From a virus: 36,324 nucleotides of DNA. The stretch covers positions 1 to 36,324 of the IMG/VR virus record IMGVR_UViG_3300038428_000241. The stretch is one strand, 5' to 3'. Position 1 is the stretch's first letter, and each line of letters opens with the position of its first letter. The notes under the pieces are model-generated. The model was not told the origin of the DNA. It did not search any database and was given only the letters and a program-made list of their open reading frames with translations. The position numbers were made by a program, and so were the translations under genes. Positions 23,730-36,324 of the stretch are shown here, one piece after another.

Positions 23730-25232
23730 CTAGATGCTTTCCGTGATGGGTGCCGAGATGACGACGAGCGACATTGATTCGACATAGGGGGATAGGCGCA
23801 CCCGGATTTCCGCGTTCAGCTGGCCTTCACTCTCGGTCGTGAGGGTGTTGACGGGTTCGCCGACGTTGACAATGCCGGCTTCCGGCGCGGTAATTCCGAA
23901 GATCGCTTTGGCTTCCCATTGGGTTTTCAGCATCGCCATCAGCGACCCCTGGAACGCCGCGAGCAGCTGACCCCGGCCATCTATGGTCTTGAACAGGTAG
24001 CCTTCCGCGATTTCTTCCCCAGCCCACACGAGGTGCATCCGCTCACGTGACGCCGAGAACTGGCAGAAGATCTTGTCCGTGGAGCGCGGGAGGGCGGACA
24101 CGAAGTCGTACAGCACCGGTTTCCCCTGGCGTTCCGCAAAGGGGTTGATCCCGTTTTCCGCGAGCGTCACCATGTTTTCGTTGCTGAACGTGTTGGTGAA
24201 TCCCGTCACAAACGGGGAGAGTCCCTGACCGGTTCCCGACCACTGCACCCCAGCCGGTGCCGCGGAGTCGTTCCCGGACTTTGCCGCCTGCGCACACAAG
24301 CCCGCCGCAACCGCAGACGCCGCAACTGTGCGGGTCGTGCCGAGAGTGATACCCGGGATGATGGCAGAGGATGAGAAGAAGGCCATGTACCCAGCGATGT
24401 TGTTCGCATAGGTTTTCTTGTTGGTGATGAGGGTTGCAGCCGTCGCCGAGTCTGCGATGTCACAGAGCGCCACCCGGTTGGTTTTCAGCGCGGATTCACC
24501 CATCGCTTTATGGATTTTTTCTTTCGAGGGTTCGCCGGACGTACCCGGGTAGCACAGCTGGCCAGGTCCAAGTGTCTTCGGGAAGAGCGCCGGCCCCGCT
24601 TCAGCGTCCGCTTCCGCGATCGTCGGATTCGTACCCGCCTGCGAGGATTTCATTTTTTTGGCGGCGTAGGTTTCGAGCTGAACCGTCGGTTCTGCCGCGT
24701 ATCCTGCGAGCTGCTTGAATGTCAGCCAGCTCGTGTTGAATTCGGTCAGCGATCCCCACGGCAGCTTTTCCGGCGACGCAAGGTAACCGGTTTCTTCGAT
24801 GACTTCCCCGGCCGCGTTCTTCAAAATAATGTTCGCGGATTCCGCGGCTTTCTTCACGACTTCCAGCGTCCATTCGTTGATGTAGGTGCCGGCATAGCGA
24901 GCTTCCACGCTGATCACTTTTTTGGCCGCGGTGTTCGAGAGTTCATAGCCCGTCGGCTGAGCCTTCACAGTGCTTTTTGCCGCTTCCTGCAGCCGCACCA
25001 CGTAGCACTGGGCGCCTTCAAGCTGGAAGAACGTTTCCACAGCGTCGTACAGTTTCCCGTTGATGGTCGAGCGTTCCCCGTAAGATTCCTTGAACGCCGC
25101 CATACTCTTGACCAGTAGCGGCGTGTAGGGTCCCCATTCGGCTTCACCGATGAAGAACGCGTTGCCAGTGGCGGTGGATGTTCCGGCTGAACCTGCGGTC
25201 TCACCGGTCGTGACCTTGATTCCTAGGGGCAT
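23730..25232 (-). CDS. Contractile tail sheath protein
   Basis: A 500-residue protein starting MPLGIKVTTGETAGSAGTST. 'AFFIGEAEWGPYTPLLVKSMAAF' and 'SYGERS' match the sheath N-terminal domain, in which '.f.G.a.rGp...p..v.s...f...yG' is conserved. The C-terminal region ('NTLTTESEGQLNAEIRVRLSPYVESMSLVV') fits the sheath domain that grips the tube. 'GTGQGLSPFVTGFTNTFSNENM' lies before it. The length is typical. This gene defines the phage as myovirus-type. Confidence 0.93.
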   Translation of the reverse strand: MPLGIKVTTGETAGSAGTSTATGNAFFIGEAEWGPYTPLLVKSMAAFKESYGERSTINGKLYDAVETFFQLEGAQCYVVRLQEAAKSTVKAQPTGYELSNTAAKKVISVEARYAGTYINEWTLEVVKKAAESANIILKNAAGEVIEETGYLASPEKLPWGSLTEFNTSWLTFKQLAGYAAEPTVQLETYAAKKMKSSQAGTNPTIAEADAEAGPALFPKTLGPGQLCYPGTSGEPSKEKIHKAMGESALKTNRVALCDIADSATAATLITNKKTYANNIAGYMAFFSSSAIIPGITLGTTRTVAASAVAAGLCAQAAKSGNDSAAPAGVQWSGTGQGLSPFVTGFTNTFSNENMVTLAENGINPFAERQGKPVLYDFVSALPRSTDKIFCQFSASRERMHLVWAGEEIAEGYLFKTIDGRGQLLAAFQGSLMAMLKTQWEAKAIFGITAPEAGIVNVGEPVNTLTTESEGQLNAEIRVRLSPYVESMSLVVISAPITESI

Positions 25233-25241
25233 AGGCCCTCC

Positions 25242-25880
25242 TTAGAGCGGCGTGATTACAGGTTCACCGACAACGGTGATCGTGTCCTTCGACGATTCTG
25301 GCCATTCCGGATACGGACCTTCGGGTTCCGTCGTTTTCAGCACGGTCGGACCGCCGTTCGGCTTCAGTAGTTCGGTGAATACATGCCATTCCGTGACACC
25401 GACGGCAACGTCCCGGCGTTCGGGGTTGAAGAACTCCACTTTCGGCGCCCCGGTCAGCAGCGTCTCCTCGGCCGCAAAGCCACCCAGACCCCCGTGGTGA
25501 GCGAGAAGCATCGTGGCGGCGGCGAACAAACCGGCGGTTCTCCTCGCCGAGGACTCCGGGTCCGTCCCTTCACGGGAGACGACCACGCATCCAACCTGCA
25601 CTTGCCAGTCCTGGATGTAGATCTGGGCGGAACGCTCGGGTTCCCCTACAGGGTTGGCGTTGACGATTACCGCAGGAACCCACTCCTGCTCCACGGTCTC
25701 CCAGTCGAGCCCACCTTTGTAGCTCTCGGGAGCGGGTGGGCGACCCAGGGCCTTGTGATGTAGGCCGTTCTGTTCCTCCACCGCGTACAGGTACGCCGGC
25801 ATCCATTCCTTGAGCGTGGCGAGGACGGCCTGCTCGACGTTCCAGGGTGCCCTGAGCGGGTTCAGCAGTTCGACGGTCAT
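25242..25880 (-). CDS. Tail terminator or completion protein
   Basis: A 212-residue protein between connector and sheath. It opens MTVELLNPLRAPWNVEQAVL and contains 'AVIVNANPVGEPERSAQIYIQDWQVQVGCVV', then 'TEWHVFTELLKPNGGPT'. An alpha/beta fold with 'v.v.cw..t' at the end fits the gpU/gp17-type terminator or completion proteins. The assignment depends mostly on its place in the gene order. Its ATG overlaps the connector stop as ATGA. Confidence 0.65.
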   Translation of the reverse strand: MTVELLNPLRAPWNVEQAVLATLKEWMPAYLYAVEEQNGLHHKALGRPPAPESYKGGLDWETVEQEWVPAVIVNANPVGEPERSAQIYIQDWQVQVGCVVVSREGTDPESSARRTAGLFAAATMLLAHHGGLGGFAAEETLLTGAPKVEFFNPERRDVAVGVTEWHVFTELLKPNGGPTVLKTTEPEGPYPEWPESSKDTITVVGEPVITPL

Positions 25881-26833
25881 GCGCAGACGGGGGGGCGTCT
25901 CGTGGGAGCGAGCATCGCCTCGGCGTGGTAGGGGAGTGCCACCATCGGCCGCATCGTTTCGTTATCCGCCGCCGCCAAACTGCCACGGCCCACGGCCTGG
26001 GTCGTCTCGAACCACCAGCGGATCGTCTCGATCGCGGCCATGTTCACGTTTTCCGGGACCTGTTCCTGTCCGACGTGATAGACCACGTGTACCGACTGCT
26101 GCGGGTGACTCGGGTCGCTCCAGAACGCGTAGGTTCCCCCTCCAGCGGTCCTGCGGACGATCGTTCCGAGTTCCCCGTGCCCCATCGTCGAGTAGACGGA
26201 CCCCTGCGTCGGGGTGGGAACGAGGCTCAGGTTGTACTCGATAGGCCCGCGGTACTCGCTGACGGCCATCAAGACGAAGATCGGTGAGGCGCCATAGCCA
26301 TAGGACGGGACGTGGCGTAAAGCGATCGTCGAGTGACCGCCTTCATACCATTCGTCATAGGTGGTCGGGAGAATCGGCCCGGTGAGGTTTTCGATCAGCG
26401 GCCGGACGCCCTTGATGAATCGCTCCAGGGTCGCGTCATGCGTATGGTCAGTCGACGGCAGGAACAGGTGGTCCTTGACTTCCGGCAGGCCGACAATCAT
26501 CGCTTCGCTGGCCGTCAAACTCGGCTGCACCTGTACCCACAAGTCACCTTCGGTGGGAAAGGTCATCGGACTGCCGGCGATTTTCGCTTCCCAATTGGCG
26601 AGGTAGTTTCCCGGAACCGCTGTGTCTGATGCGCTCGGCGTGAAGGACACAGTGCCTGCCGCTTTTGTCACAACCGCCGCAGTGCCTTTGAGGTTGAGCG
26701 GTTCCGTGCCAGTGGGAGACCGCATCACGAACTTGACAGATTCGGGTTCGGCGAGTTTCCCGTTGGAGTAGCTCAGTGTGTCTTCAAAAATGGGCAGTGT
26801 TTGCCCCTGGTCGATGGTAAAGTCGGCCATCAT
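25877..26833 (-). CDS. BppU-like Ig domain fused to head-tail connector
   Basis: A 318-residue protein. The first ~105 residues ('FTIDQGQTLPIFEDTLSYSNG', 'VKFVMRSPTG', 'VSFTPSASDTAVPGNYLANW') resemble the N-terminal domain of baseplate upper protein BppU, usually found on baseplates. From about 110, 'MIVGLPEVKDHLFLPSTDHTHDATLERFIKGV' and 'LRHVPSYG...EYRG' fit a gp6-type head-tail connector. The fusion at the connector position is unusual. Met1 and Met2 are both possible starts. Confidence 0.7.
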   Translation of the reverse strand: MMADFTIDQGQTLPIFEDTLSYSNGKLAEPESVKFVMRSPTGTEPLNLKGTAAVVTKAAGTVSFTPSASDTAVPGNYLANWEAKIAGSPMTFPTEGDLWVQVQPSLTASEAMIVGLPEVKDHLFLPSTDHTHDATLERFIKGVRPLIENLTGPILPTTYDEWYEGGHSTIALRHVPSYGYGASPIFVLMAVSEYRGPIEYNLSLVPTPTQGSVYSTMGHGELGTIVRRTAGGGTYAFWSDPSHPQQSVHVVYHVGQEQVPENVNMAAIETIRWWFETTQAVGRGSLAAADNETMRPMVALPYHAEAMLAPTRRPPVCA

Positions 26834-26852: not shown

Positions 26853-28634
26853 TCACGCTTCGCCCCTGCGTCTCTGTTCCGGGCTCGTTACGCCCAGCTT
26901 CTCGTGTGGGCTTGTGACGCCTGGCTTCGTAACCGTTAGGGGTTCCCTTTCGGGCGTGTAGGTTTCTGATGCCGTGAACTTACGGAAGTAGACCTTCGCG
27001 ACGCTTTCCGAGTTCTGCATGGCGTACACGAGACCCGCGCACGCCTTTTCTTCGGAGTCGGGAAGCACGCACCACTGTCCATAGACGTGAGGCAGATTTT
27101 CTTCGTCGATCGCCACTTTCGGGGACCACGTAGCCCCGAAGTCTGAGCTGTAGTGGAAGGCAGGCCAGCCGTTGGTTTCCCAGATGCGCTGCATGAGGAG
27201 TAGCCCGCCGTCTTTGCCCTGGAAGAGTGCCGGCCTGCCGACGTTGTTCCTGGAGGCCATCTCCACCACGTGGGGTTCACTCCACGTCGCTCCTTCGTCG
27301 GTGCTGGACGCCATGCGGCAGTCGTGATCCACATCGTTGCGGAGGGCAACCAGTAGCTTCTTGTGACCTTCGGGTTCCTTTACCCACGAGATGCACGGCT
27401 CTTCCGATGAGTGGATTCCGTCATATTCGGTGATTGGGACACCCGTGGCCCACGTCACTCCATAGTTTGAGCTTGTCGCCGTCGCCGCCCACAGGTACGT
27501 GGTGCTCTGACCTGCATTGCAGCCCTGCTGCCCCATGACGAGATGACCAGGTGCTGACAACTCGACCGCAGGACCGCCGACCGCGCCTCCCATGTTATTG
27601 CCTTCGGTGACTTTGTACGTGAAGTTCGTCGGGATCGTCGCGAACGAACCGAACGTGTTACCTTCGTCGGTCGAGCGGACGCAGCGTATGACCTGGTAGG
27701 TTTCGTTGTCGCTCTCGTCAAAGAGGACGACGACCGAGCCATCTGACAGCACGGTCGCATCGGCGTTGGCACAGCCCGTTTCGGCCCGCAGGGATTTCGC
27801 TATGACGTACGGGACACCCCACGTGGCTCCTTCGTTCGACGATCTCTTCGCGTAGATGACACCGTCTTTTGATTCGTGTTTGCTTTTCACGCAGTACACT
27901 GCCAGCACTTCACCAGAAGGGAGCACGTGCGCCGCACCGGGGAACGCGCAGTGTTCCGTGGGCGCGGCGTGTTCGGCGACGAGGACCCGGCTTCCGACGA
28001 TGGGAACCGTGATCGGGGGATGGCCGGTTTTCCGTTCTTTGGACGCTTCGCCGGAGGCGCCGAAGTTTCGCCACGCGGGTTCACGGCCGATGACCCCAAC
28101 GGCGACATAACCCTTCGTGTAGGTCGAGTCGGTGTCTTCGCGGACGACTTCCCACGCACCCGCTCCGTGTTTGTACCAGGAGATGACTTTGCCCGCGAGG
28201 ACCTGAAAGCCCACCTGGTCGCCTTCACTGGCTTCGCTGATGTTCGATTCGCCGAGGAGGTGGAGGACCCCGTTGTCCATACGTTCCACGATGAAGCCGG
28301 TTTTGTTGAAGGCTACGTAGTGAAGCTGGAGACGGTAGCCGCTCGGACTTTCCGGGGCTGTCACTTTCGTGAGACACGCCCACAGTTCCAGCTCTTCCCC
28401 GGTCCCAGGATGGGGCATCTTATAGATTTCGCCCTTTACCGCAGGCTCGGTGAATTCCCCCGGGCTCCAGTAGTAGACCGCCGTATTTTCGGTCCCGTGG
28501 AGCGAGTGGAAGGCTTCCCCTTCAATCGCTCCCGTGAGAGCACTGTCAAAGAGTTTCCACGCGCCTTCGAGGGAGAGCGGATCTTCTGCGGGGCGGATGA
28601 AGCTGTCGAGGAGTTCAGTCGTGGGAAAGGACAT
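26853..28634 (-). CDS. Sialidase-like Asp-box protein
   Basis: A 593-residue protein. Residues about 15-195 are beta-sandwich-like and could be a concanavalin/LamG-type carbohydrate module. From about 205 a six-bladed propeller is suggested by Asp-boxes at 265-272 (SSNEGATW), 321-328 (STDEGNTF), 388-395 (SSNYGVTW), 443-451 (SSTDEGATW) and 496-503 (SSDFGATW). These mark the BNR/sialidase fold. The C-terminus repeats 'GVTSP' twice. Glycan binding or cleavage is inferred; the catalytic Arg triad and Tyr cannot be assigned by eye. It lies between head and connector genes, so it may be a virion surface glycan-binding protein. Confidence 0.78.
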   Translation of the reverse strand: MSFPTTELLDSFIRPAEDPLSLEGAWKLFDSALTGAIEGEAFHSLHGTENTAVYYWSPGEFTEPAVKGEIYKMPHPGTGEELELWACLTKVTAPESPSGYRLQLHYVAFNKTGFIVERMDNGVLHLLGESNISEASEGDQVGFQVLAGKVISWYKHGAGAWEVVREDTDSTYTKGYVAVGVIGREPAWRNFGASGEASKERKTGHPPITVPIVGSRVLVAEHAAPTEHCAFPGAAHVLPSGEVLAVYCVKSKHESKDGVIYAKRSSNEGATWGVPYVIAKSLRAETGCANADATVLSDGSVVVLFDESDNETYQVIRCVRSTDEGNTFGSFATIPTNFTYKVTEGNNMGGAVGGPAVELSAPGHLVMGQQGCNAGQSTTYLWAATATSSNYGVTWATGVPITEYDGIHSSEEPCISWVKEPEGHKKLLVALRNDVDHDCRMASSTDEGATWSEPHVVEMASRNNVGRPALFQGKDGGLLLMQRIWETNGWPAFHYSSDFGATWSPKVAIDEENLPHVYGQWCVLPDSEEKACAGLVYAMQNSESVAKVYFRKFTASETYTPEREPLTVTKPGVTSPHEKLGVTSPEQRRRGEA

Positions 28635-30288: not shown

Positions 30289-30554
30289 TACGCCACCACC
30301 TCCTCCGGAGAACAGTCGGGGCATCTCATGAGAATCATCCCGTGCTCACAGCGCGGGAGCGGGCGACGGCCCCGGCGTGGTTTCACCGGGACCGCCGTCT
30401 CCAACGGCTCGGGCTCGGTCGTCTCACCGAGCATGGCAAGCTCCACCTTCATCGCCCGCACCATTCCCACGTCACCTCGTGCCCTGGCGTTTGCTAGGGC
30501 CTCGCGGAACATGGCGGACTTACCTTTCCGGGTGGGGGCGTAGATCTGGCTCAC
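30288..30554 (-). CDS. Helical zinc-ribbon protein, GTG start
   Basis: An 88-residue protein. The start is placed at GTG 30554, which overlaps the stop of the preceding virion gene as GTGA, matching the local ATGA style. ATG 30512 is the alternative. The N-terminal half is helical and basic ('MFREALANARARGDVGMVRAM' with one break); the C-terminus has 'PRCEHGMILMRCPDC', a likely zinc ribbon (Cys-x-His ... Cys-x2-Cys). Unknown function. Confidence 0.6.
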   Translation of the reverse strand: MSQIYAPTRKGKSAMFREALANARARGDVGMVRAMKVELAMLGETTEPEPLETAVPVKPRRGRRPLPRCEHGMILMRCPDCSPEEVVA

Positions 30555-31165
30555 TGCAAGAACACCAGCGGCCCACTCACCTTCGACGTGACGGTGCCGA
30601 GGGTCGCTTCCGCCGTAGCACCCAGGCCCGTTCCTACGGTGCCCGCGAGGACTTCCGGTCCTCCCGTGAACCATTCGTACTGGCAGGCTTTCGGGACCGG
30701 TGAGGAGAGCGCCGTCGGGATGGTCACGGCGCTAACAAGGACGAGGACTACGTACACAAACCCTTTCGGTGCATTTTCCGACGTGATGAGCACCGATTTT
30801 TCCAGTTCGAACTTGTACGCTTCGCTTGCTGTGATTGCGCCGTAGTTCTTCGTTTTCGACTGAGCCAGCAGTTTCCCGCCGGCTTTCCCAGCGTAGAGCG
30901 CTGCGAAGCCTGCCGAGACGGTGTTGCCGGCGGTCGCTCCGATGAGGTAGGTGGCGCTTGTGAACACGTCGCCTTCCTGGACCGGGACTGGGACTACACA
31001 CCCGACTTCGGTGGCGGCGAGTGCCCCGTCTTCGAGCTTGGTCAACTTCTGGGTCCACACGTTGCTCCGCGCTGGTACGTCCGACTGGGTGGCGTTCACC
31101 GGCCTCCCGAAGATGAGCCACATGGGATCGTAGGCGCCGTAGCGCCCACTGACTAGATCGGTCAT
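30551..31165 (-). CDS. Virion protein, paralog 2 of tandem family
   Basis: A 204-residue protein from ATG 31165. It begins MTDLVSGRYGAYDPMWLIFG, nearly the same as its upstream neighbour (MTDLVSGRYGAYEPLWRLLG). The pair also share 'NATQSDVPxR', 'VPVQEGDVFT', 'LITSxNAPxGxVY' and 'WFTGxPE' in the same order. Middle segments and the C-terminus differ. A longer frame upstream is an antisense artefact. Function unknown; tandem duplication and location after the capsid gene suggest capsid-associated proteins. Confidence 0.8.
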   Translation of the reverse strand: MTDLVSGRYGAYDPMWLIFGRPVNATQSDVPARSNVWTQKLTKLEDGALAATEVGCVVPVPVQEGDVFTSATYLIGATAGNTVSAGFAALYAGKAGGKLLAQSKTKNYGAITASEAYKFELEKSVLITSENAPKGFVYVVLVLVSAVTIPTALSSPVPKACQYEWFTGGPEVLAGTVGTGLGATAEATLGTVTSKVSGPLVFLQ

Positions 31166-31175
31166 GTCAGCCCTT

Positions 31176-31793
31176 TCAGTAGAGGAAGATGAACGGCACT
31201 TTGGCGATCGCCGTTTCGGTGGCGAGCGTTGCCGACGCCACTTTCGCCGCTTTCTGGGTAGCTTCGACCGACAGCGCTTCAGGGCAACCGGTGAACCACG
31301 GGGTTTTCGACCAGACGGTCGGGACTTCCACACCGACCTCCGAGGGAACAGTCGCAGTTTCCACCACGAGCCCCGCGTAGACATAACCGTGCGGGGCGTT
31401 CGCCGAGGTGATGAGGATGGCCGATTCCAATGTCCCGGTGAAGATTGTGGATTTCACCTGTGCGGCTTCCGAGAAGGTCGTCTGCCCGAGCAGGGTGCCT
31501 TCCGTTTTCGCCGCCGGGGCCGAGTAGACGGCGAAGAACGCCTGCCCCGCAGCACCTTCTTTGGCTCCGATCAGACAGGCGACTTTCGTGAACACGTCGC
31601 CTTCCTGGACCGGCACAGCGACCATCGGCCCTTTTTTCGTGTTGGTGGTCGTCATGTCCACCAGCGTCGAGAGCCCGAGAACCGTGGCGTTGGTGCGAAC
31701 CGGCACGTCGGACTGCGTTGCGTTGGTCGGCATTCCGAGCAGCCGCCAGAGCGGCTCATAGGCGCCGTAGCGCCCCGATACGAGATCAGTCAT
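31176..31793 (-). CDS. Virion protein, paralog 1 of tandem family
   Basis: A 205-residue protein, the first of the tandem pair, with 'MTDLVSGRYGAYEPLWRLLG' at its start and 'PFIFLY' at its end. It is Thr/Val/Ala-rich with no enzyme motif. A ribosome site (AGGAG) lies 7 bases before ATG 31793. Its leader contains two alternative hairpins. It is separated from its paralog by 10 bp. A head fibre or decoration role is inferred. Confidence 0.8.
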   Translation of the reverse strand: MTDLVSGRYGAYEPLWRLLGMPTNATQSDVPVRTNATVLGLSTLVDMTTTNTKKGPMVAVPVQEGDVFTKVACLIGAKEGAAGQAFFAVYSAPAAKTEGTLLGQTTFSEAAQVKSTIFTGTLESAILITSANAPHGYVYAGLVVETATVPSEVGVEVPTVWSKTPWFTGCPEALSVEATQKAAKVASATLATETAIAKVPFIFLY

Positions 31794-32034: not shown

Positions 32035-33762
32035 CTAGAAGGCGTAACCGCCGAGGGTCGGTTCCACCGGGGCTTCAGTGAAGGCCGCTGCCACTTTCCA
32101 TGCTTTACCACCGCAGAACTGCACCGACGGCGAGTAACGCACGAGCAGCGACACGTAGGCGTACACCTGGAAGCGGATCTGGAGGGTTCCAGACACGACC
32201 TCCGGGAGCACTCGGGTCCGCAGGTCGGACTCGAACACCCACACGTCGTCGAACTTGGCAGTCAGCCCGTAGCTGTAAACTTCCGAGCCTGACGTTTTGA
32301 GAGTTTTGGCTTCTTTGTCGGTCGCGTACAGAATGCTGGCTGCCGCTTCCGTCGAGCTTGCCTGCGGCAGGATCGGCGGAATGTTCGCCGAGTGGTAGAT
32401 GACCGGTCCGAGTGGCGTCTTCGCGAAGAACCCCTCGTAGGGTGTTTCTGGCTCCATCTCGGCCGCGAGGTTGTAGTTCGGGAAGTCGGTGGCGTTTATC
32501 ATCGGCCGCCCGATTTCCCCGCTCGTTCCGTCCAGGGACGCCGCCAGGAAGCCCGAGAAGGCGGGATTGATGACGTGGTGGACGTTCTGGACGTTGAAGC
32601 GTTCCTTCGCTATGTGCGCCCAGTTCGCGGCCAGCCCGCCGAGGATAACCGCCGGGGCAGTAGCGCTCGTCGAGTTGCGGACACCCGCCGCCCAGTTCGC
32701 CTGCGGGAACAGGCCCTTGATCGTCCCTGCGTTCAGCTGCGTGTAGCTTGTCCCCTGCCCGAACGACACATTCTGATCGAACTTCAGGTTGTAGTCCGCC
32801 AAGAGGTCTTCCTGCACCACCCGGTCGAACACCTGGCCCGGCGACTGCTCGATCAGCTGGATCGCCACGTCCTCCTGGCCCGCCAGCGTCTTTACAGCAG
32901 CTTCGACGTAGGTCGATTCGACGTCCCTCGACGCGACCCCAGCGTTGTCCGCCAACTGCGGCGCGACTTCGGTCCCGACTTTGATCTTCGGAAGTTTGAT
33001 CGTGTCGGTACCCGGGGGCACCGGCAGGTTGCGGCACAGCGGGGCAATAACCCTTCCGGCCCTGAGGGCGGGAATGAAATCATCCTCCACCAGCCACAAC
33101 GGCGGCACGAATTCACCACCGTGACCAGTTTCCCTGGACGGGTTCGCCCGTTTCTCAAACGGGCTCGCTTCGAGCGTCCCACCGAGACCTGGGAAGCTCG
33201 ACCGGAACTCGCGCTCCGCACTGTCGATACCCTCTTCGGCCGCACGGGCGCGTTCCATTTCACGCTGGGGCAGACGGTCTTCCATCTCCCGTCCGTGACG
33301 CCGCAGACGCTCCTCGGCGTCTTTCCAGTCCCCCATGATGCGACCCTTCCAGCCGGTGTCGGTGCAGATGAGGTCGCGGTAGTAGCTAACTTCGTGGGAG
33401 TTGTCTTCCCGGTAGGTCAGCGGCTCTTTGACGTCGGTGACATGAACCCGAGACTCCTTCTCAGCCACCGCACGGCGCTGTGCTTTCTCCTCCTGCTGCG
33501 CGATGCGCTCATTGAGGACCTTCAGCTTGCTCTCAAGATCCTCGGAGGCTGAACGGAACTCGTCCTCAGCGAGGTTGTAGGCATCGCGGTCCGCGTCCGT
33601 GGGGCGCTCGGCCACATCCTCGGCTTTGCTGCGATCCTCGAACTCTGACCGGCGTTTCTCGGCGTCGTCAATGAGCGTGTCCCATTCCGCCCCGAGGGTT
33701 TCCCTGCGCTGGATCAGGTCCTCCAGTAGTGTGGGCTTGGTGATCGTTTCTGTTATTGGCAT
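32035..33762 (-). CDS. Major capsid protein, HK97 fold (copy 2)
   Basis: A 575-residue protein from ATG 33762, preceded by AAAGGA seven bases upstream. Residues about 1-190 are a long charged coiled coil, as in HK97-type scaffold (delta) domains (EDLIQRRETLGAEWDTLIDD, LNERIAQQEEKAQRRAVAEK). The capsid body begins near 'GGEFVPPLWL' (215-224). Typical elements follow: 'NLPVPPGTDTIKLPKI', 'SPGQVFDRVVQEDL', and near the end 'VVSGTLQIRFQVYAYVSLLV'. It ends with a short tail. The gene is followed by a strong hairpin. Related in several blocks to the upstream capsid gene at the right edge. Confidence 0.88.
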   Translation of the reverse strand: MPITETITKPTLLEDLIQRRETLGAEWDTLIDDAEKRRSEFEDRSKAEDVAERPTDADRDAYNLAEDEFRSASEDLESKLKVLNERIAQQEEKAQRRAVAEKESRVHVTDVKEPLTYREDNSHEVSYYRDLICTDTGWKGRIMGDWKDAEERLRRHGREMEDRLPQREMERARAAEEGIDSAEREFRSSFPGLGGTLEASPFEKRANPSRETGHGGEFVPPLWLVEDDFIPALRAGRVIAPLCRNLPVPPGTDTIKLPKIKVGTEVAPQLADNAGVASRDVESTYVEAAVKTLAGQEDVAIQLIEQSPGQVFDRVVQEDLLADYNLKFDQNVSFGQGTSYTQLNAGTIKGLFPQANWAAGVRNSTSATAPAVILGGLAANWAHIAKERFNVQNVHHVINPAFSGFLAASLDGTSGEIGRPMINATDFPNYNLAAEMEPETPYEGFFAKTPLGPVIYHSANIPPILPQASSTEAAASILYATDKEAKTLKTSGSEVYSYGLTAKFDDVWVFESDLRTRVLPEVVSGTLQIRFQVYAYVSLLVRYSPSVQFCGGKAWKVAAAFTEAPVEPTLGGYAF

Positions 33763-33919: not shown

Positions 33920-34192
33920 TCAGGGGCTGAGCGGGTCAGAGCTGAAGAGGGCGTAGCAGTAGGTCTCCTGCGGTAGCGTCCGTGTGAACTGGTGTCCCGC
34001 AGCTGCTGTTCCCTGCTTCGTGTCACTGATGAGTACGACTGTGCTACGACGTCGCTCGGCCTCTCTGGCGACCTTTCGTTTCAGGTCGCGTTCGGTGCCG
34101 TCCTCTACGGCGATCCTCTCGACGCGATATGTGCCCTCGCGGAGGCTAGTCGGCAAGGCTTGTACCAGGACTCCCTCAATCGCCAAGAGCAT
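33920..34192 (-). CDS. Small virion protein, paralog of neighbour (90 aa)
   Basis: A 90-residue protein from ATG 34192 (MLLAIEGVLVQALPTSLREG). It shares with the preceding gene 'LAIxGVxVxALPxxLxEG', 'RVE', a basic helix and the ending 'ETYCYALFSSDP'. The frame upstream of ATG 34192 is shadow sequence of the neighbour. The 157 bp after this gene, up to the capsid start, hold no gene; a small hairpin (TTCTCC/GGAGAA) near 33795-33813 is visible. Function unknown. Confidence 0.7.
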   Translation of the reverse strand: MLLAIEGVLVQALPTSLREGTYRVERIAVEDGTERDLKRKVAREAERRRSTVVLISDTKQGTAAAGHQFTRTLPQETYCYALFSSDPLSP

Positions 34193-34466
34193 TCCTGTCT
34201 CCGATCGCTGGTGATGAACTAAAGACCGCATAGCAGTACGTCTCCTCTACTAGCTCCGGTGGATAGGGCTTGTAGAACTCCTCAGGCACCGTTCGCCTTT
34301 TCGGGGCGCTCGTGAGCACCAGCACGGCTCGGCGCAATGCGGCGGTCGTCTCGATCTTGTGTTCCAGTGCTTCCTCGTCGGGGGCTGTTACCAGCTCGAC
34401 GCGGAAGTTGCCTTCGCCGAGTCCCTCGGGAAGCGCAGCGACGTTCACTCCGTGGATCGCAAGCAT
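34176..34466 (-). CDS. Small virion protein, paralog of neighbour (96 aa)
   Basis: A 96-residue protein beginning MLAIHGVNVAALPEGLGEGN. It shares the order and key residues of the following gene, including the end 'ETYCYAVFSSSP'. Mixed alpha/beta composition with a Glu/Lys-rich helix in the middle. It overlaps the next gene by 17 bases. The pair lies between the two capsid genes; a role at the capsid is plausible but unproven. Confidence 0.7.
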   Translation of the reverse strand: MLAIHGVNVAALPEGLGEGNFRVELVTAPDEEALEHKIETTAALRRAVLVLTSAPKRRTVPEEFYKPYPPELVEETYCYAVFSSSPAIGDRNALGD

Positions 34467-34476
34467 GATCTCCCCC

Positions 34477-34851
34477 TCAGCCGATAACGACTATCGCTGC
34501 TTCTTCTGTGGCTTTGAGTTCCGTGCCGAAGATCACTTCGACTTCCGTAGCACTCAAGACTTTGTAGGTGTAGTTGCCCGCGCCAGCGGCCTGCAGGTAG
34601 GGTTCGGTGATCACTTTCGTCGTCACCTTGTACGCCTGCACGATGACGGCGGTAGTGTTGAGTAGGTGTTTGAATTTGTATTTCGTTTCACCGTTTTTGC
34701 CGGTGACGACCGTGATGCTCTTGCGGGCGACACCTGTGTTGGCTACGGCCACTTCGTATTCGCCCCCGGGCGTCGCAGGCTGAGCCGGGACCTTAGCTGC
34801 CGCCGCGGGGACGCTTTCGGCGCTCAGGGGAATGGGGTTACGGACAGCCAT
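34477..34851 (-). CDS. Virion protein related to fibre C-terminal domain
   Basis: A 124-residue protein. From about residue 30 it resembles the last ~88 residues of the 867-residue fibre: 'NTGVARKSITVVTGKNGETK', 'YKFKHLLNTTAV', 'YKVLSATEVEVIF' and a final 'VVIG'. The N-terminus (PLSAESVPAAAAKVPAQPAT) is Ala/Pro-rich. The common domain is probably a small beta-sandwich. It lies in the head region, so head fibre or decoration is likely. Coupled to its neighbour by TGATG. Confidence 0.75.
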   Translation of the reverse strand: MAVRNPIPLSAESVPAAAAKVPAQPATPGGEYEVAVANTGVARKSITVVTGKNGETKYKFKHLLNTTAVIVQAYKVTTKVITEPYLQAAGAGNYTYKVLSATEVEVIFGTELKATEEAAIVVIG

Positions 34852-35147
34852 CAGACTTCCGCCACCGTGACATTGGATTCAGCCGTCGCGGCGAGACCGA
34901 AGACGGAGCCCGTCCAGACCATCGGTCCGACCATGCCGTTCCATGATCCTCCGGACGCGGCGAGGAAGAGGCCTTCTTCGGCCACTGCGGCCTTGCCGAG
35001 TTGGAGATAGATCGAGTTCGCGCTCTCGTTGACGATTTCCAGGCCGTTGCGGTTGAGGTTTGCCGCGACAACAGCGGTGGTTGTCGTTTTGACTTTGACC
35101 TTGGTCGAGGCGAGCGCTTCGTTGGTCTTATTTCCTATAATTGGCAT
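34851..35147 (-). CDS. Small beta-sandwich virion protein, 98 aa
   Basis: A 98-residue protein with 'NLNRNGLEIVNESANSIYLQ' near its centre, a pattern ('anp.R.gL.I.N.s...iyl..G') found in many small phage structural proteins with a beta-sandwich fold. Start and stop are TGATG-coupled to the capsid gene and the next gene. Likely capsid-associated; decoration versus spike base is unresolved. Confidence 0.72.
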   Translation of the reverse strand: MPIIGNKTNEALASTKVKVKTTTTAVVAANLNRNGLEIVNESANSIYLQLGKAAVAEEGLFLAASGGSWNGMVGPMVWTGSVFGLAATAESNVTVAEV

Positions 35148-36324
35148 CAGTGGAAGCCTTCCTGTGTCTTCATGCCCGTGCCTTCTACGACCGAGATGCC
35201 AGAGGGATAGCGTCCGAGAATCGCTGCGACGTAGCGATGCAGCTCGAACCGCGCCGACAGAGAGCCCGACAGCACGTCGAGCTTCACGGACGGTTTCGGT
35301 TCCGAGACCAGGAGTACGAAGTCGGACGGTCGGCAGGCGATCACGACATCCTGTTCCTTGCTCACCCCGAGGGTGGTGGTGATCGCGTCGTCGAAATAGA
35401 CCCCCACACTTCCGAGCCCGGCGTTCGGGAAGTTCGAGTGCGGGTAGTCTTCAATCGATAGCGGTCTGTTGGCACTATCCTCGGAGAATGCGAGCCAGAA
35501 GAAGCGGGACGTCGTAGCTAGCCACGCTTCCGGCGGCAGACGACGTTTCACACCGACCTGCGCCGCTGCCTGGCCGAGGTACGGGATCATCCCCGGACCC
35601 GTCGGATTGGCGGACGTGTAGGTGATTTTGTTGTTCCCCGCGACGTTGATCAATCCGTAGAATCGTTCGTTTTCGCCCGACCCCGCTATCAGTTCGTACT
35701 CGACTTCCGCGTCGAGCGAATCGAAGAGATCCTTGAAGACCACCCAATCCAGATGCGCGCCGGCAGGGGACTGCTCAAGGGCCTGTAGTGCCCAGTCGGA
35801 CATTCCCACGAACGTCGCAGCGGGGGATTTGACGGCTTCCGTTTCGACGTCCTGATCGTCAACCGGAGTACCGGCCACGTTCTGACTCGCGACGGTTCCC
35901 TGCGTCATCCTTGGCAGGTTCACCGACGATACGCCTGGGGGAAGATCGAACGTCGGCGCGAGTCTTTGAATGACCTCACCCGGACGCCTGGCCATAGCGA
36001 ACAGCTCGTTCAGCCAGAGGGGAGGAGCGAACTCACCACCCGTCCCTGCCGTCAGGTTTGGGTTGACGCGGAACTCGACCCCCTCCAGGCTGCGCATCTC
36101 CCGCTTCGGGACGGCCTGCATCTGGCGCATGTGCTTCCTGAGCCGCTCCCCCGCCGCCGTATTGCGACTCTCACGAAGGGCGAGGTCACGGCAGTAGCTC
36201 CGGCGATTCCGGTACTCGTAGATCAGCGGCTCGCCGACGGCGCGATGACCGTTGGCTTCGGCGCGCTCGATGATGGCACGCTGCTCCTGGGTGGGCTCGG
36301 GTGTCGCAAGCTCTAGCGCATCGC
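35147..36324 (-). CDS. Major capsid-like protein, HK97 fold (copy 1), 5' end beyond window
   Basis: The frame is open from the right edge to a stop at 35147, giving at least 391 visible residues; the start is outside. The first visible part is helical ('EPTQEQRAIIERAEANG', 'GEPLIYEYRNRRSYCRDLAL'), matching the scaffold region of copy 2 ('KEPLTYRED...SYYRDL'). The capsid body begins at 'GGEFAPPLWLNELF', and the end contains 'VLSGSLSARFELHRYVAAIL', again matching copy 2. The two are clear paralogs that have diverged strongly. Which is the main capsid subunit cannot be told from sequence. Confidence 0.85.
   Translation of the reverse strand, partial: DALELATPEPTQEQRAIIERAEANGHRAVGEPLIYEYRNRRSYCRDLALRESRNTAAGERLRKHMRQMQAVPKREMRSLEGVEFRVNPNLTAGTGGEFAPPLWLNELFAMARRPGEVIQRLAPTFDLPPGVSSVNLPRMTQGTVASQNVAGTPVDDQDVETEAVKSPAATFVGMSDWALQALEQSPAGAHLDWVVFKDLFDSLDAEVEYELIAGSGENERFYGLINVAGNNKITYTSANPTGPGMIPYLGQAAAQVGVKRRLPPEAWLATTSRFFWLAFSEDSANRPLSIEDYPHSNFPNAGLGSVGVYFDDAITTTLGVSKEQDVVIACRPSDFVLLVSEPKPSVKLDVLSGSLSARFELHRYVAAILGRYPSGISVVEGTGMKTQEGFH

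Follow-up and report, generated by a model that had tools for sequence, protein, structure and literature searches.

To our knowledge, a division of labour between two capsid proteins has so far been published only for phage T4. This phage encodes two diverged HK97-fold paralogues, namely gp23, which forms the hexamers and loses 65 N-terminal residues, and gp24, which occupies the vertices and loses 10 (PMC9958956). The two proteins share ~20% identity, gp24 is thought to have derived from gp23 by duplication (PMC9958956), and T4 makes a separate scaffolding core (PMC3012670). In phage HK97, a single protein, gp5, makes up hexamers and pentamers alike. The scaffold region that is fused to this protein is known as the delta domain. 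Two HK97-fold shell proteins encoded at one locus are also found in the family 2B encapsulin of Streptomyces lydicus, which is a bacterial compartment with randomly mixed subunits (PMC12407261).

Here we describe a pair of diverged HK97-type capsid proteins, MCP-A and MCP-B, that are encoded, like gp23 and gp24, in one phage, here a phage from soil. The window (i.e., the whole stretch of 36,324 nucleotides that was analysed) spans all of the linear IMG/VR record IMGVR_UViG_3300038428_000241. The closest cultured relatives of both proteins (~26–36% identity) belong to mycobacteriophages Bipper, Baka, and their relatives, which have the same portal-protease-MCP module but differ in having a single capsid gene (whichever of our four queries was used, one place was matched in each of 57 mycobacteriophage records). 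Among 50,697 cultured phage records, these 57 were the only ones with a relative, and no dual locus of the MCP-A/MCP-B family was detected. Likewise, literature searches that took in few subscription papers returned no report of this family's capsid pair. The "two major capsid proteins" of a Clostridium phage proved to be an annotation from a brief genome paper, which is not evidence of roles, and a literature match to JBD30 was one of wording only.

Genomic setting of the two capsid genes

The right edge of the window removes just the first 4 bases of the MCP-A gene. Two contigs overlap this edge, L007 (2,079 bp, 99.95% identity) and L008 (434 bp, 99.8%), and they place the GTG start of MCP-A 4 bases outside the window, with a good Shine-Dalgarno-like site (GGAGG); for MCP-B, a Shine-Dalgarno-like AAAGGA lies ahead of the start codon. 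Since near relatives are found on contigs of up to 82.8 kb, the window is probably a fragment of a longer genome. An earlier reading of the window from its letters alone (hereafter the sequence-only reading) had proposed a search of the flanking contig for a portal and a protease, and both were recovered upstream of MCP-A. Specifically, L007 and L008 supply the large terminase, the portal, and a 495-aa prohead protease that are absent from the window, and the protease (phrog_80, 3.5e-44) directly precedes MCP-A. In L007 (2742–4229), it has a CxxCxGxG-type zinc-ribbon-like stretch (CPTCKGTGKIKGGSTKCPDCDGTG) before the protease domain, and L004 and L006 show similar stretches. Between terminase and portal of L007, a 131-aa ORF (1028–1423) resembles a homing endonuclease (AAGFFDGEG motif).

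On the 3' side of MCP-B, the window encodes head-tail adaptor-like, neck or tail-completion, tail sheath, tape-measure-like, and baseplate proteins (Table 1). With genes for a tail sheath, a tape-measure-like protein, and a baseplate, the window phage is, by gene content, a contractile-tailed phage. Its host is very probably actinobacterial. The virion gene block also includes a 593-aa protein (26853–28634) in which a BNR/sialidase-like repeat domain was detected (PF13088, 4.8e-17).

Table 1 Features of the capsid gene region and of the adjoining head and tail genes, in window coordinates.
Feature	Position	Strand	Remarks
MCP-A, short HK97-fold capsid paralogue, 393 aa in full	35147..36324	-	Complete in L007 (4226–5407); ORF inside the window is 35147–36322, open at the edge
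98-aa protein directly after MCP-A	34851..35147	-	Conserved in L004, L005, L006, and L089
124-aa protein	34477..34851	-	Among near relatives, common to L004 only
96-aa small ORF	34176..34466	-	Not found in relatives
103-aa small ORF	33920..34231	-	Not found in relatives
MCP-B, long HK97-fold capsid protein, 575 aa	32035..33762	-	ATG at 33762
205-aa protein	31176..31793	-	Relatives 3' of MCP-B in most dual-capsid loci with enough flank
Head-tail adaptor-like protein	25877..26833	-	phrog_442
Tail sheath	23730..25232	-	phrog_23, 7.8e-26

Four small genes had been placed between the two capsid genes. Four ORFs are indeed present there, but only the one directly after MCP-A is common to most near relatives, and this ORF had no counterpart in L092 when the loci were compared. 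Judging from its position, its product is possibly a decoration protein. By eye, the 96-aa and 103-aa ORFs resemble tandem paralogues (shared EETYCYA.FSS.P ending). With regard to the 205-aa protein, no member of its family was found among the 29 single-capsid loci inspected. This family, to which window ORF 30551–31384 also belongs, is possibly connected with the proposed two-component head. The two window members are tandem paralogues with a MTDLVSGRYGAY... start.

Two paralogues with a predicted HK97 fold

MCP-A and MCP-B share 28% identity over 483 columns (BLASTP, E 9e-29), and both match phrog_2263, "major head protein" (4e-18 and 5.7e-27, respectively), so that their likeness is far above chance; by sequence, the two proteins are paralogues. 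Both ORFs lie on the minus strand at the positions given in the sequence-only reading, and the three motifs on which it drew (EPL.Y...SY.RDL, GGEF.PPLWL, and V.SG.L..RF....YV) are present in both proteins. Matches to Phage_capsid (PF05065) were weak, and at 20.2 and 15.5 bits they lie below the curated cut-off of 24.2; neither protein was assigned to this model.

AlphaFold2 models were built from alignments of the loci found here (43 rows for MCP-A and 42 for MCP-B) and reached a mean pLDDT of 80.2 and 74.1, respectively. Structural comparison with HK97 gp5 (1ohg; Foldseek, VIA-align) gave Z 21.1 for MCP-A (257 aligned, 3.8 Å) and Z 19.9 for MCP-B (267 aligned, 3.8 Å). Both proteins are predicted to adopt the HK97 fold with its spine helix, E-loop, and P- and A-domains, and the E-loop and body layout are alike in the two predictions. 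The structure prediction and structural alignment that the earlier reading had called for are consistent with its view that each protein keeps a complete capsid body. The models are of single chains, which do not tell pentamer from hexamer. When A was compared with B plus the single-capsid proteins, only two positions were clearly separating, and these were without domain signal; a four-residue insertion common to both B groups (window B 466–469) is too short to weigh.

HK97 gp5 is the nearest solved structure by sequence profile (1.8e-9 for MCP-A and 6.6e-8 for MCP-B) and is at or near the top by fold. No T4 chain was among the profile matches of MCP-A and MCP-B at E<=0.01, and T4 5vf3 appeared low in the structural list of MCP-B (Z 16.1), as expected from the shared fold. 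The models also matched chains of encapsulin 9bje (Z 20.4 for MCP-A and 17.2 for MCP-B). However, the presence of terminase, portal, protease, tail sheath, and baseplate genes sets this locus apart from the encapsulins.

The N-terminal region of MCP-A is short

A long helical N-terminus had been ascribed to both capsid proteins. This description fits MCP-B, in which 214 residues precede GGEF, but not MCP-A, in which only 96 do so. In MCP-B, ~110 residues, mostly helix, lie ahead of the EP..Y block and form long helices in the AlphaFold2 model, and the N-terminal region before the body occupies the position of the scaffold of HK97 gp5. This difference extends beyond the window: all A copies with a readable N-terminus start at, or no more than ~40 residues from, the EP..Y block, whereas most B copies have 90–115 residues ahead of it. 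The N-terminal region of single-capsid relatives is comparable to that of B (133–205 residues before GGEF in most, as counted from the preceding stop). Given the short N-termini of A and the B-like N-termini of single-capsid relatives, this comparison indicates that the coiled-coil half of the putative fused scaffold region, which was assigned by position, was lost from MCP-A.

Distribution and history of the capsid pair

We searched viral contigs and bacterial genomes, and the loci obtained were then profile-scanned for A and B. Both genes are carried by ~23 distinct loci, some of them near-identical, and B lies near A in all 23 dual loci. These include near relatives of the window (L003/L004, L005, and L006; A 54–62% and B 57–67% identity), intermediate loci (L089, L092/L093, L160, and L162), a distant group (the L012–L039 series), and an Actinomycetes MAG contig (L137). 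The gene order is portal-protease-A-B in the window group and L160/L162, portal-A-protease-B in ten loci (L012, L013, L015, L016, L017, L023, L025, L031, L039, and L137; L024, L037, and L038 fit this order where the contig reaches), and B-A in L095 and L098. One capsid gene each was found in 113 single-capsid loci, which were defined by portal and protease hits, >2.5 kb of downstream sequence, and one capsid gene. L014 and L018 likewise appear to have a single capsid gene, but each of these contigs starts at the B gene or shortly ahead of it.

Three contigs (L158 2476–5520, L100 409–10089, and L098 85–7586) carry integrase, primase, HNH and/or terminase genes together with an A-clade or A-like capsid gene. 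No tail genes were seen on these contigs, and in L100 a protease follows the capsid gene. It is possible that they are capsid-forming satellites of Actinobacteria.

In a maximum-likelihood tree of the HK97 bodies (65 rows, 307 columns; L100 and L132, which are A-like but long-branched, were left out), all 21 A copies tested fell on one side of a branch with support of 100/99, and did so in every bootstrap tree. The B copies, together with two truncated contigs, formed another side with support of just 75/66, and the single-capsid proteins formed a third. Two deep groups can be recognised on the A side of the tree, and the B side shows the same two, as would be expected from joint inheritance. 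The best explanation for the sequences is that the A/B duplication predates the divergence of all the dual-capsid loci that we found. Alternatively, since the monophyly of B is weak, it is possible that the duplication took place at the base of the family and that A was then lost in single-capsid lineages. Estimates of dN/dS in a close trio of loci (L015/L017/L039) were 0.13–0.15 for A and 0.06–0.12 for B and indicate purifying selection on both copies, while in most pairs conservation is lower for the A body than for the B body (e.g., 61% vs. 75% between the window and L006). By these comparisons, the capsid pair is real, ancient, and conserved.

A proposed two-component shell and its alternatives

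We consider it somewhat better than an even chance that the pair forms a two-component HK97 shell, independent of T4 gp23/gp24, with B in the hexamers and A at the vertices. MCP-B, which keeps the full ancestral layout (coiled-coil scaffold region, linker, and HK97 body), would likely be the bulk hexamer subunit, and MCP-A, from which the coiled-coil half of the scaffold region is gone, would likely be the minor vertex (pentamer) subunit. MCP-A would enter the prohead through contact with MCP-B and the scaffold of MCP-B, and the encoded prohead protease would then trim both proteins. Retention of both copies and loss of the scaffold from the short one suggest that the two proteins have different tasks in building the shell. 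The capsid of two subunits that the sequence-only reading had put forward is supported by both predicted folds, the ~23 dual loci, and the single A clade, and the T4 parallel would favour its split into vertex and hexamer roles. As in T4, the N-terminal region is the shorter one in the putative vertex protein, a prohead protease is encoded, and the tail is contractile (PMC9958956, PMC3012670). This differs from T4 in that we found no sequence relation to the T4 proteins and in that the scaffold region lies within MCP-B, whereas T4 has a separate scaffolding core (PMC3012670). The roles in hexamers and pentamers are known for T4, whereas here we infer co-presence in one shell, hexamer and vertex roles, scaffolding in trans, and cleavage. 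As a GGAGG site precedes MCP-A, an argument for its low copy number from weak translation was dropped.

The main rival to vertex and hexamer roles is random mixing, in which A and B would co-assemble without fixed roles (variable mixed hexamers and pentamers), or in which their ratio would set alternative head sizes. We regard this as a serious but considerably less probable reading. It would be in line with the strong ribosome-binding-like site ahead of A, with the E-loop and body layout common to both predictions, and with the two-component encapsulins of family 2B, which randomly mix two HK97-fold proteins (PMC12407261). However, fixed and different positions are favoured by the 28% identity of the pair and by an A without the scaffold half in every readable case, and T4 gp23 and gp24, with an identity of only ~20%, are not known to mix (PMC12407261).

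It is unlikely that A is located outside the shell lattice, as a ring adjacent to the portal, a component inside the prohead, or a small shell of its own. A does lie between portal and protease in the second group of loci, and the short contigs L158 and L100 have an A-like capsid gene with no B detected, but A retains a whole HK97 body (Z 21.1) at low dN/dS, and no dual locus has its B far from A. We think it very improbable that A represents a second capsid gene that was captured recently or is redundant and that serves no lasting role. Although A evolves faster in most pairs, the A copies form one clade that has diverged together with B, are found in three gene orders at ~23 loci on independent contigs, and evolve under purifying selection. 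Capture of one copy, which the sequence-only reading had offered as its second option, is also weakly rejected by the tree: a tree in which A and B of the window group are constrained to form a single clade is worse by 25 log-likelihood units (p-AU 0.048, which is marginal, the group having been named after the tree was seen). Finally, an artefact that joined two phages in one metagenomic contig, which ends inside MCP-A, is refuted by the independent contigs that carry both genes (including L003/L004, L005, L006, L089, and the bacterial MAG contig L137).

Implications for capsid evolution

By their sequence profiles, MCP-A and MCP-B fall outside the T4 gp23/gp24 lineage, and their working would be T4-like if the hexamer and vertex roles proposed above are right. 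We more tentatively suggest, with a little less than even confidence, that this is a second, independent two-protein HK97 virus shell, in which the scaffold of B would act in trans on a scaffold-less vertex subunit A, and that such shells are widespread among uncultured soil phages and have not been seen in any cultured phage. If true, the existence of another lineage, unrelated to T4 by any detectable sequence similarity, would demonstrate that specialised hexamer and vertex subunits can evolve repeatedly. The many close single-protein relatives (113 loci) open the splitting of a capsid into two proteins to comparative study, and the absence of the scaffold from one partner offers a direct test of a fused scaffold acting in trans.
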